DNA of 34,419 nucleotides, taken from assembly GCA_030682385.1 (NCBI GenBank), contig JAUXOG010000118.1, forward strand, positions 1-34,419, written 5' to 3'. This document shows positions 1,701 through 34,419 of the stretch, piece by piece. A model generated the notes under the pieces. The model was not told the DNA's origin. It did no database searches and saw only the letters and a program-made list of their open reading frames with translations. Every line of letters starts with the position of its first letter. Positions within the stretch are counted from its first letter, which is position 1. This DNA comes from Bacteroidota bacterium (GTDB lineage Bacteria > Bacteroidota > Ignavibacteria > UBA10030 > BY39). The translations under genes and the position numbers were made by a program.

Positions 1701-4700
1701 TTAGAGTTGTACTTGTTTATTTATTTCTATAATATTTTTTTCAACGATTTCAAAAAGTTCAGCAAGTGATTTCTGTACTTTCATAGTCTCTGCCAATGCT
1801 GTAACAACTTTGCAATAATGGCTCACTTCTTCCGATGAGAGAACTCTTCCTTTTCTATCTTTCAACCACTTCGCCGCAACCTGATATCCGCCGATATGAT
1901 ATTCCCATACTTCTTTTGCGACACCGGTAAAGTATTGCACCGGATTAAAATGTACTCGTTTCTTTTTTTCGTCGTATGTTACTTTCTCAACTCTGTTATC
2001 TCCTTTACCTTCGCAGCGTGCAATTGATTTGCCGAGCTTCTTTGATTTTAGAAGATGAAGGGCAACGAGTGCTTCTCCCTTTTCTGCCAACGACTTAAAC
2101 ACTTTGTGACTAGATGTGAAAGGTACTCTCGGGAAATCCGTCTTCAAAAACTCTGCGTACTTTTGGCGGTAGGCATTCGAGTACAACACGCCGTAAATGT
2201 AATAGAAAATATCTTCAGGACTTGGCTGTTTTTTGTAAGCCTCTGTTAGCATCTCAAAAATCTTCGGAGCAATATTAGGAATTTTTTTGCCACTACCATA
2301 AGATACTTCCGGTTCAAATAACATCATGGTAATTCCGCCGCCAGACCTGCTTTTCTTCCGTTCAGGATAAAGATAAAGAGGTACAACATAACTAATACCC
2401 AATGCGCCTGATAAAACATGTCCTTCAACAATCTTATCTCCAACAAAAACATCATTATATTCACCAACAGGATGTCGGTTGGTAAGTAAAAGAGCCAAAT
2501 TTTCCTGCATCATATGTTGCATGACTTCTTTTCTGGAACGCTCAACGAGAGCATCATGATAAAATATCTCACGGACATCGAACGGTCTGTAAAGTAATTT
2601 GGTGAAATGATCTTTCCAATCTTCATCTTTAAACAACGCTTTTCTTGCATCCCGTAATTTCCATGCGCCTGTATTTTTTAAGTCATACGTTTTTGCTATA
2701 AAAATATCATCTAACGAAGATTCCGTAAACTGTGTAATTCTCCTCTTAAGCTCTCTCCGGTCAAAATCAATTACAAAGTTATCTCTTGCCGTAACGATTC
2801 CAACACTATTCACCGGAAAAATTTCCGGTACACTTGGATACGCTTGATATCTGAGTGAGCGTTTTTCGTCTCTCGGCACAAACAAATATAAGGGTGAGCT
2901 TGGTTGAAATTGCTTCCACTTTACGGTCTTGTGGCTAAGAGTGGTTAACTTCTTATACTTTTGTTCTCTCAGCCCCCATAGATCTGCATGGAATATTTTT
3001 TTCTCACCCTTGTGTTTTTTCTTCTTCACAAACAATCCGATGGCAACGCCCTGTTGTATATCGAACACGTTTTCATCTTTTGAGCCGCCTGCCTGCCGCG
3101 CCATAAGTCGCCCTGCTTCATACTCTCTTTTTAGCCATTTTCTACCAAAACCAGTCTTTAAATTCTGTTCCCTTTTAACAGATTCTTCTCTGCTACTAAG
3201 TTCTTCTAAGTGTATTATTTCAATCGGTAACCGTGATTTTGTCCATGAAACTTCGCCTTTTAAATGCTCATCAAATCTACGCCTTATATTATCTGTCTGC
3301 CCAATATAAAAACTTTCGTCCTTACATTTCAGAACATAAACCCAAAATAACCCTGAACGCGGCGCAGGCAGGTCGGGGGCTTTTTCTTTCTTCAATGAAT
3401 TGCCGTGCAAATCGAGAAGATAAATCTCATCAAACGAGTTCATCAACGATTGCCGCATACCACGGAACGTTGGATTATCGAGATAACTGTGGTTCGTTAT
3501 GAAGCCGAGTACCCCTTCACCAACCTGATCAATTTTCCATTGTGCAAAGCGGATGAACTTCACGTAATCATCCTGTAACCATTTCGGATTTTTCTCGCCC
3601 AGCGGCTTACCATCTACTTTCTTGTAAGTTTCTATGAGTTCCGAAATCCACTCTCCTTTATTGACGGAGTGCCCCGAATAGGGTGGATTGCCAAGCACAA
3701 CGAGAATGGGCTGCTTTTTCTTTACTTGTCCGGCAAGATGAGATTCTTCCGAGAGCGACGACATACCCGGTAGTGATGTCTGCACAAGCTCTTCCATCTC
3801 CAGTGTGTTAGTCAAATAAAACTGAAACCGCTCATCGCCGCTCAGCTTGTGCCCCAATTCTTCGAGCAGGTAACCCATCTTCAAATGTCCTGCCGCGTAC
3901 GGAGCCATCATCAGCTCGAAGGCGTAAAAATGTTTCAGGATGTGGTCTTCAATGAATTTGCGGCGAGAACCATCACCGTATTTCGAAACAAATTCTTCAA
4001 CTGCAAGCTTTGCCGCTTCGGCAAGGAATGTCAACGTTCCGCCGGCAGGGTCGAGTACCGTAACGCTTGGAGTGGCAAATCCATCTTCGCGCCCGAACTT
4101 TTCTTTAAGAATTATATTGAGCGAACGGACGATGTACGAAACAACCGGCTCAGGTGTGTAATAAACTCCTCTTCGTTCACGTTCTTGCGGATTGTACTCA
4201 GCAAGGAACGTTTCGTAGAAATGAAAAATCGGATCGCTTCCTTTGCCTTCATCGAAATACTGGTGTAGAATTTTCTTTACATCGGCGGCAGCAAGAACTT
4301 CTGCAATATCATCGACTGTGGCTTGCAATTGCTCTGGTGGATCAAAAGAAATGAAATGAAAAATCTCACGCAGGATTCCTATAGTTTTTGGAATCAAGTC
4401 GTATGCAATCTTTCTATTGAAAGAACCGTCGGCTCTTGTTCGTGCTGCAAACAATCCATACGTAATCGTTTGTGCATAAAGGTCTGCAAATTGTTCCGGT
4501 TTAAGATTTGCGATAAGATGTTTTTGAAACGCCTCGTAAAATCCGAGAATCTTCTTCGCTCCAGGTGTCGATGCTTCGCGTAGCTCTGCTGTTATTACCT
4601 GATCGCGGAGAAAACGTGTACGGCTCGCAAGCTCGCGTGCAAGCGTTTCGGCAGTAAAATCTTCAGGAATCGAAAATTGGAAAAACTTTTCGAGCAAGGC

Positions 4701-5132
4701 AAAGAAATCTTCCGTATGCTCGGCGGGCGGGATAATTTTTCCTTTTGCCGCAACAAACGGTCGTGCCAGTAAGACTGCTGCCAATAATTTACCACGACGG
4801 TAAAGTCGGAATTCATAGAAGTTCGTGAGTATAAGATTTGGGAAAGTTTCGATGTAGCGCTGCAACTGTTCCGATTCTTCAATATCATCGAGATTTGCGG
4901 TGGGTGGTTTAGCTTCTATATATCCTACTTGCGAATGCACACCATCCCATATTCGAAAATCGGGATTACCAGCTTCTGTTTTTTTTGGTAGAACAGTAAT
5001 CTCTATTTTCTTTTTTAGTTTTGCCTGTGAGTATTCCTTTAGAAAGGTTTCCAGAATAGAGTAATAAGACTCTTCTCTTGCATCACCCCTTTGTGTTTTC
5101 GCAGCGATTTCTTTTAGGTAAGTCGCAATCAT
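1701..5132 (-). CDS. Single-chain restriction-modification enzyme (type IIG / type ISP-like) with inserted GIY-YIG domain
   Basis: This 1143-aa protein combines cleavage and methylation. The N-terminus carries a PD-(D/E)XK nuclease core: PDF at ~57-59, then GYIEAK with the Glu/Lys pair at ~73-75. An N6-adenine methyltransferase follows, with SAM motif I DPAGGT (~360) and catalytic motif IV NPPY (~480). The rest resembles the target-recognition C-terminus of type ISP-like enzymes (LDLHGNSLKKE, DENVFDIQQGVAIGLFVKK). No helicase motifs are seen, which fits type IIG-like enzymes rather than true ATP-driven type ISP. Residues 588-682 are a complete GIY-YIG nuclease-like segment inserted between APD and GSKDENVF. 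Without it the protein would be 1048 aa. It is transcribed divergently from rplM. Confidence 0.88.
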   Translation of the reverse strand: MIATYLKEIAAKTQRGDAREESYYSILETFLKEYSQAKLKKKIEITVLPKKTEAGNPDFRIWDGVHSQVGYIEAKPPTANLDDIEESEQLQRYIETFPNLILTNFYEFRLYRRGKLLAAVLLARPFVAAKGKIIPPAEHTEDFFALLEKFFQFSIPEDFTAETLARELASRTRFLRDQVITAELREASTPGAKKILGFYEAFQKHLIANLKPEQFADLYAQTITYGLFAARTRADGSFNRKIAYDLIPKTIGILREIFHFISFDPPEQLQATVDDIAEVLAAADVKKILHQYFDEGKGSDPIFHFYETFLAEYNPQERERRGVYYTPEPVVSYIVRSLNIILKEKFGREDGFATPSVTVLDPAGGTLTFLAEAAKLAVEEFVSKYGDGSRRKFIEDHILKHFYAFELMMAPYAAGHLKMGYLLEELGHKLSGDERFQFYLTNTLEMEELVQTSLPGMSSLSEESHLAGQVKKKQPILVVLGNPPYSGHSVNKGEWISELIETYKKVDGKPLGEKNPKWLQDDYVKFIRFAQWKIDQVGEGVLGFITNHSYLDNPTFRGMRQSLMNSFDEIYLLDLHGNSLKKEKAPDLPAPRSGLFWVYVLKCKDESFYIGQTDNIRRRFDEHLKGEVSWTKSRLPIEIIHLEELSSREESVKREQNLKTGFGRKWLKREYEAGRLMARQAGGSKDENVFDIQQGVAIGLFVKKKKHKGEKKIFHADLWGLREQKYKKLTTLSHKTVKWKQFQPSSPLYLFVPRDEKRSLRYQAYPSVPEIFPVNSVGIVTARDNFVIDFDRRELKRRITQFTESSLDDIFIAKTYDLKNTGAWKLRDARKALFKDEDWKDHFTKLLYRPFDVREIFYHDALVERSRKEVMQHMMQENLALLLTNRHPVGEYNDVFVGDKIVEGHVLSGALGISYVVPLYLYPERKKSRSGGGITMMLFEPEVSYGSGKKIPNIAPKIFEMLTEAYKKQPSPEDIFYYIYGVLYSNAYRQKYAEFLKTDFPRVPFTSSHKVFKSLAEKGEALVALHLLKSKKLGKSIARCEGKGDNRVEKVTYDEKKKRVHFNPVQYFTGVAKEVWEYHIGGYQVAAKWLKDRKGRVLSSEEVSHYCKVVTALAETMKVQKSLAELFEIVEKNIIEINKQVQL
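3087..3371 (-). mobile_element. 285-bp in-frame GIY-YIG cassette inside the R-M gene
   Basis: The cassette encodes 95 residues that interrupt the R-M protein after APD. Domain features are WVYVLKC, FYIG, a basic RRRF segment and REQNLKTGFGRKWL, so the GIY-YIG Tyr, Arg and Glu positions are kept. It is bounded by GC-rich inverted ends: CCTGCCTGCCGCGCC at 3088-3102 and GCGGCGCAGGCAGG at 3359-3372, which share a 9-bp core GCAGGCAGG in opposite orientation. Deleting 285 bp rejoins GCC CCC GAC with GGC TCA AAA, giving KAPDGSKDENVFDI, which is what this family should read. No target duplication is evident. The mobility mechanism is inferred. Confidence 0.8.
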
Positions 5133-33816: not shown

Positions 33817-33890
33817 GGGGCCGTAGTTCAACTGGTTAGAGCGCCGCCCTGTCACGGCGGAAGTTGCGAGTTCGAGTCTCGTCGACCCCG
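33817..33890 (+). tRNA. tRNA-Asp (anticodon GTC)
   Basis: The 74-nt cloverleaf folds fully: acceptor GGGGCCG with CGACCCC, D-arm GTTC/GAGC, anticodon stem CCGCC/GGCGG around loop CTGTCAC (anticodon GTC), T-arm GCGAG/CTCGT with loop TTCGAGT, and discriminator G. Position 5-68 of the acceptor is a C-A mismatch. No CCA is encoded. A terminator follows at once. Confidence 0.95.
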
Positions 33891-33934: not shown

Positions 33935-34080
33935 ATGGGATACTTCGTGTATATATTGCAAAGCGAGAAAGATGGGTCATTTTATATTGGTTCAACTTCA
34001 AATGTATCTTTGAGATTGGAGAGACATAATTTAGGATGGAGTAAATCTACCAAAGGAAAAGGACACTGGAAAGTAGTTTA

Positions 34081-34284
34081 TGGGTGGATCTAAAAATCCA
34101 AAAGAATATCGAATATCGAACCCGCCTGCCGGACGGGCAGGCAAGGAATTATTCACCCCATTGGATAGCCGACGATGGAGTGAATTAAAAAACAAAAACA
34201 ATATCCAACGGGGTAAATTTTGAAGTAATTTTCCAATTCGTCATTCGACATTCGGTGTTCATTATTCATTATTAGAACTACCCT
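34081..34284. mobile_element. 204-bp MITE-like palindromic element with TA duplication
   Basis: Terminal inverted repeats TGGGTGGATCTAAAAAT (34081-34097) and AGGGTAGTTCTAATAAT (complement of 34268-34284) match at 13 of 17 positions. TA lies at both flanks (34079-34080 and 34285-34286), a Tc1/mariner or IS630-type duplication. Inner arms also pair: ATTCACCCCATTGGATA (34151-34167) with the complement of TATCCAACGGGGTAAAT (34202-34218), 15 of 17. There is no coding capacity. A GC palindrome GCCTGCC/GGCAGGC (34124-34142) is nested inside. Confidence 0.82.
34124..34142. repeat. GC-rich CCTGCC palindrome nested in the MITE-like element
   Basis: GCCTGCC-GGACG-GGCAGGC is a perfect 7-bp inverted repeat in AT-rich surroundings. 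The GCCTGCC core also occurs at the ends of the GIY-YIG cassette in the R-M gene and in repeat unit 5 (about 24868). Confidence 0.7.
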
Positions 34285-34419
34285 TATACAGAAAAGTATG
34301 TAATGAAACACGAATCATTGGTAAGGGAGAAAGAGATCAAATCAAAGAAGAGCAAAAAGTATATTACAAAATTGGTTCACGGCGGAAGTTTATAGTGAAC
34401 TTGCCGAACTGTTGTCCCG

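Follow-up and report, generated by a model that had tools for sequence, protein, structure and literature searches.

An IS5-related MITE within a tRNA-linked GIY-YIG gene of a Bacteroidota genome

The stretch of DNA analysed here (34,419 nucleotides, hereafter the window) is a complete contig, C25, of a 3.38-Mb draft genome in 140 contigs. At positions 34082-34283 it carries a non-autonomous, IS5-related MITE of 202 bp that is loaded with nested palindromes. The MITE is of an ordinary kind, and the gene in which it sits is the more surprising part. That gene, of the GIY-YIG type, belongs to a family found beside tRNA genes in many genomes, a relationship that the preliminary description of this DNA had missed, and the MITE has silenced a cassette adjoining a tRNA-Asp gene, the sole one detected in this genome. 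Taken together, the data make it highly probable that a MITE moved by an IS5-family transposase broke a GIY-YIG gene of a tRNA-linked cassette family that, most likely, homes into tRNA genes. The MITE defines a new IS5-related family with its true duplication length, and provides a clean case of gene inactivation. The tRNA-linked cassettes, if correctly interpreted, would represent a testable set of tRNA-specific nucleases and account for the large number of short GIY-YIG genes located beside tRNA genes.

The interrupted gene and its target-site duplication

The sequence of the MITE runs GGGTGGATCTAAAAATCC...TCATTATTAGAACTACCC, with no open frame through its 202 bp. The left terminal inverted repeat, GGGTGGATCTAAAAATCC, occupies positions 34082-34099 on the plus strand, and the right one, reading GGGTAGTTCTAATAATGA on the minus strand, occupies positions 34266-34283. 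The termini pair at 13 of 17 positions and the inner arms at 15 of 17, exactly as previously described, and as single-stranded DNA the MITE folds better than 199 of 200 shuffled sequences (z = -3.3). An element of 204 bp had been proposed at 34079-34286; it is indeed real and at that place, with boundaries now set at 34082-34283. Its MITE-like nature is borne out by inverted ends, target duplication and multiple copies in its own genome and in relatives, and mobilisation in trans is supported by the lack of a transposase in the window.

Direct repeats TTAT flank the MITE on the left (34078-34081) and on the right (34284-34287). The TA previously noted on both sides is present, but only as the centre of this 4-bp repeat. 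The bases directly outside GGG...CCC were compared for 19 elements, i.e. 16 MITE copies, two IS5-family elements and one relic. Flank repeats of 4 bp were found in 10 of the 19 pairs, against 1.6 expected (permutation mean), and none of 20,000 shuffled pairings reached 10, whereas flank repeats of 2 bp, in 2 of 19 pairs, showed no excess over the permutation mean of 2.9. Since 4-bp repeats exceed chance and 2-bp repeats do not, TA is read as the centre of a 4-bp duplication. Duplications among the 19 elements include TTAT (three copies), TAAA, AAAA, TGAA, TATA, ATAA and AATA; the 9 pairs lacking a perfect 4-bp duplication have perhaps decayed.

The 5′ part of the GIY-YIG gene (33935-34081, plus strand) comprises 49 codons and includes the conserved Arg without the conserved Glu, which is found in the 3′ part (34288-34395, plus strand; 35 codons and a stop). 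As long as the MITE is present, the frame meets a stop three codons inside it. Removal of the MITE and one TTAT, not one TA as first suggested, restores the 84-aa frame of the preliminary description, which matches PF01541 with 51.5 bits (cut-off 22.6) and contains the conserved Tyr, Tyr, Arg and Glu residues of the domain. Residues Y6, Y17, G19, R27 and E63 are invariant in 15 relatives. Intact homologues, of up to 59% identity, align without gaps over the junction, in agreement with the clean empty site reported earlier, and the element was not found as coding sequence in such homologues. The insertion would have inactivated a small free-standing GIY-YIG endonuclease gene, presumably functional until then, by parting its Arg half from its Glu half.

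Copies, nested palindromes and relationship to IS5 elements

An exact-pattern scan of GTDB genomes for a 63-bp module of the MITE gave no matches, and copies were therefore looked for by whole-genome search. With BLAST, the MITE matched 29 places in its own genome (best E-value 4.6e-105). At least 12 of these are related MITE copies with one or both ends recognisable, some of them cut by contig ends, so that the lack of further copies, named at the outset as grounds for rejecting the element, did not materialise. The copies share a common plan, with GGGTGGTTCTAAAAATCC, GAATGTCGAATATCGAAC, a central fold-back GAAGTAAATTTCCACTTC and ATTCGACATTCGGTGTTCATTATTCATTATTAGAACTACCC in that order. A survey of 98 genomes of the order by MITE ends revealed several copies, located at unrelated sites, in the genome itself, in G001 of the same genus, and in two genomes of another family, G041 and G042; G002 and G081 gave a single end match each.

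The body of the MITE is variable. The nested palindrome GCCTGCCGGACGGGCAGGC (34124-34142) is missing from the copy on contig C36, and other copies have different palindromes at this place. The 63-bp hairpin module TCACCCCATTGGATA...TATCCAACGGGGTA (34153-34215) is also missing from the C36 copy, which reads GGAATTATGAATTTTGAAGT instead, and is found in other contexts in C24 and C130. Palindrome CACCTGTCTGCGTGCCCGCACAGGCAG is set into several MITE copies, the C4 copy features CCCCGATTCTATCGGGG in place of the central fold-back loop, and a copy in G001 contains a double hairpin. Palindromes of the TCCCGA..TCGGGA class occur at 65 sites in the genome, compared to 2 for a control pattern.

Some further observations were made on these modules. 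The 63-bp module (ACCCCGTTGGATA...TATCCAACGGGGT) is multicopy both within and outside MITEs (C24, C44, C64, C101, C4, C63, C116, C62, C35 and C130), and several contigs end inside it. At locus L089 of genome G032, the arms of the module are the same and the loop is different. A reading of the GTTGGAT...ATCCAAC arms as attC was rejected, as the arms match attC only weakly and follow each other in the reverse order. Palindromes of similar class occupy the loops of MITE copies and those of the partial tRNA copies described below.

An intact IS5-family element was identified in the same genome, on contig C38. Its transposase matches NCBIfam NF033581 (IS5_4) with 263.9 bits (cut-off 140) as well as PF05598 and PF01609, and the element has ends GGGGACTTCCAAAAACT and target-site duplication ATAA. 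Another intact IS5-family element, in G001, has ends GGGTATCTCTAAAAACT and duplication AATA. The ends of both elements are similar, not identical, to those of the MITE, and their duplications are of equal length. The closest ends are those of a relic on C72, GGCGGTTCCAAAAATTGC and GGGCAGTTCTAAAAATGC, which surround a shrunken frame. This frame, starting MISSKKQPSRGFFDEQEQLEKLSKLKDPLEKL, resembles the start of the C38 transposase and IS5 transposase ends; a Pfam search with it gave no transposase match. Comparison by eye showed the MITE end GGGTGGTTCTAAAAACTAC of G042 to agree with both IS5 ends at 14 of 19 places. For the left end of the MITE in the window, agreement with the C38 end is lower, at about 11 of 19 places. 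Neither its own genome nor the 98 genomes of the order yielded an intact IS sharing the exact ends of the MITE, and no transposase was recognised among the open frames listed at L107, L110, L112, L115, L121, L126 and L128, near matches to a TIR-like pattern. An IS5-family DDE transposase is a feature of the related full element on C38, and not of the MITE itself. Because the ends are similar, the duplication length is the same and no identical-ended parent was found, the MITE is labelled IS5-related. We infer that an IS5-family transposase acting in trans moved it, joining its GGG...CCC ends to a staggered cut of 4 bp rich in A and T, in this case TTAT.

Assignment of the MITE to the Tc1/mariner or IS630 class with TA duplication, as first proposed, would fit the TA that flanks the element in the window on either side and adjoins several further ends. 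It is nevertheless extremely improbable, in view of the chance level of 2-bp and the excess of 4-bp repeats over the 19 elements and of copies flanked by AAAA, TGAA, TAAA and TATA, those with AAAA and TGAA having no TA at all. If RAYT (Y1) transposases had spread REP-like palindromes and the element were a composite of these, not a MITE of a DDE transposon, this could account for the GC-rich palindromes present in several copies and for the TCCCGA..TCGGGA class with its 65 sites, and the genome has 10 matches to Y1 transposases. REP units, however, lack terminal inverted repeats and target duplications, whereas the palindromes observed here are nested in a larger unit possessing both features, and are missing from some of its copies; we regard such an origin as quite unlikely. 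Eight Y1 (RAYT-like) genes of the genome, on C105, C115, C120, C98, C45, C74, C139 and C94, have full or near-full domain matches.

The split gene might also be an artefact of assembly, the gene being intact in the real genome. The contig does end at 34419, only 136 bp past the MITE, and contigs C35, C62, C63 and C116 break inside or beside the 63-bp module. Yet the MITE is bounded by its own target duplication, and the same boundary is found with TTAT duplications in other contexts on C64 and C36, which renders an artefact very improbable.

GIY-YIG genes beside tRNA genes

An intact tRNA-Asp(GTC) gene (33817-33890, plus strand; ARAGORN) ends 44 nt upstream of the GIY-YIG start at 33935, and Rfam revealed nothing besides tRNA. 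The genome contains 18 GIY-YIG matches and 39 tRNA genes, and 8 of the 18 matches are within about 400 bp of a tRNA gene, compared to roughly 1% expected by our estimate from tRNA density. Within the order, 79 of 91 GIY-YIG relatives have a tRNA gene no more than 500 bp away, in many cases at 0-50 nt, in a set picked by similarity to the protein of the window and counting both halves of its gene, and hence not an unbiased census. Strand agreement with the adjoining tRNA gene is complete (79/79). The closest relatives, from many genomes, nearly all adjoin tRNA-Asp(GTC), and other GIY-YIG groups adjoin Pro, Ser, Ala, Val, Arg and Cys tRNA genes. A profile search built on five GIY-YIG proteins retrieved relatives in named GTDB genomes. 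A tRNA gene adjoins 54 of these 78 loci, always on the same strand, and is tRNA-Asp in 36 cases; such linked loci occur in Ignavibacteria, Bacteroidota, Neomarinimicrobiota, Cloacimonadota, Elusimicrobia, Deltaproteobacteria, Nitrospirota, Methylomirabilota and others. A tree built from 172 proteins requires 61 changes of the tRNA label, compared to 103 when labels are shuffled (0 of 200 as low), although the tree is based on few columns and host kinship adds to the clustering of labels. In phage records only two weak matches to the family were found, and in plasmid records none.

Additional GIY-YIG sequences were noted in other settings. At locus L287 (C63:13400-13766), a tRNA-Asn gene reads in frame into the GIY-YIG start (SSMVEHAAVNRRVVGSSPTRGA...), and tRNA-derived stretches of this type may turn up in automatic annotation. 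A type ISP-like restriction-modification protein encoded in the window (1704-5132, minus strand) has an in-frame GIY-YIG domain (3144-3347, residues 596-663) between its methylase and specificity domains, and contig C39 has a second GIY-YIG match, inside a 1158-aa frame.

Partial copies of the adjoining tRNA are frequent at such loci. Of 82 tRNA genes adjoined by a GIY-YIG gene, 64 are accompanied by one or more additional partial matches to their own sequence, in most cases beyond the GIY-YIG gene, although some of the shorter matches may be due to chance. The window shows this pattern in short form, with a 14-nt exact copy of tRNA-Asp positions 36-49 (3′ side of the anticodon arm and variable loop) at 34377-34390 on the plus strand, at the end of the GIY-YIG frame and close to the contig end at 34419. 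The breakpoints of partial copies cluster in the D loop, anticodon arm and T loop, and the gap between two collinear tRNA pieces is in many cases a perfect hairpin of a length not attained in 100 shuffles. The tRNA-Asp cassettes have, in place of the T loop, TCCCGA...TCGGGA with middles that differ yet pair (L135, L136, L138, L139, L142 and L143). The hairpin is in the anticodon arm in Val, Gln and Asn cassettes and in the D loop in Arg and Ala(CGC) cassettes, and Pro cassettes have a 22-nt double hairpin. A hairpin position typical of the tRNA isotype was also noted in the partial copies at L042, L146, L154, L156 and others, besides the six tRNA-Asp loci just listed.

Because of this linkage and of the tRNA duplications, we infer that tRNA genes are most likely the homing targets of GIY-YIG cassettes, with partial duplication of the tRNA and one copy kept intact; the GIY-YIG genes would accordingly be mobile and their products able to cut DNA. 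The nuclease would cut the tRNA gene in a stretch coding for a loop, and repair would leave an intact tRNA gene, the nuclease gene and a displaced tRNA copy with a hairpin interrupting the cut site. It is tempting to speculate that the hairpin protects the displaced copy from renewed cutting. More broadly, we lean slightly towards the view that a large and hitherto undescribed class of mobile cassettes on bacterial chromosomes, with free-standing GIY-YIG endonucleases of which each lineage is tied to a tRNA isotype, inserts at tRNA genes, preserving one tRNA intact and leaving another, partial copy with a perfect hairpin within its D, anticodon or T loop. This hairpin would indicate where cutting takes place and could protect the copy.

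Comparison with known systems

The MITE shares with the IS5 family and its derived MITEs short ends starting with GGG, a 4-bp A/T-rich duplication and non-coding derivatives mobilised in trans, and differs from them by the nested palindromes and the 63-bp hairpin module in its body. MITECca01 of Cardinium, also from the Bacteroidota, is likewise a widespread MITE with inverted repeats of IS type (PMC9769881). The counterpart with which MITECca01 was compared there, ISCca4, is listed under the IS982 family, unlike the IS5 elements considered here. REP and BIME sequences are similar in featuring GC-rich palindromes dispersed in many copies, but the palindromes described here are located within the loops of other hairpins, those of the MITE and of the tRNA copies.

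For the tRNA-linked GIY-YIG family, no report of such genes on bacterial chromosomes was found in the open-access literature, which yielded only papers on phage SegB, group I introns and organelles. The nearest known case is SegB of phages T4 and T6, a free-standing GIY-YIG homing endonuclease (PMC2988022, PMC13096335) that cuts within tRNA genes in the vicinity of RAWTSGAAC and drives the amplification of tRNA segments in tandem (PMC13096335). In the opposite orientation, this motif appears to resemble the T-loop sequence GTTCSAWTY. By analogy, the bacterial cassettes would most likely arise in a SegB-like manner, and if tRNA genes serve as landing sites with preservation of the tRNA across bacterial phyla, the family would constitute a chromosomal counterpart of SegB. 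Common to both is a small, free-standing GIY-YIG gene situated among or beside tRNA genes. SegB, however, is a phage system, whereas the family described here, almost without match in phage or plasmid records, resides on bacterial chromosomes of many phyla, with subtypes tied to tRNA isotype and with partial tRNA copies that bear hairpins.
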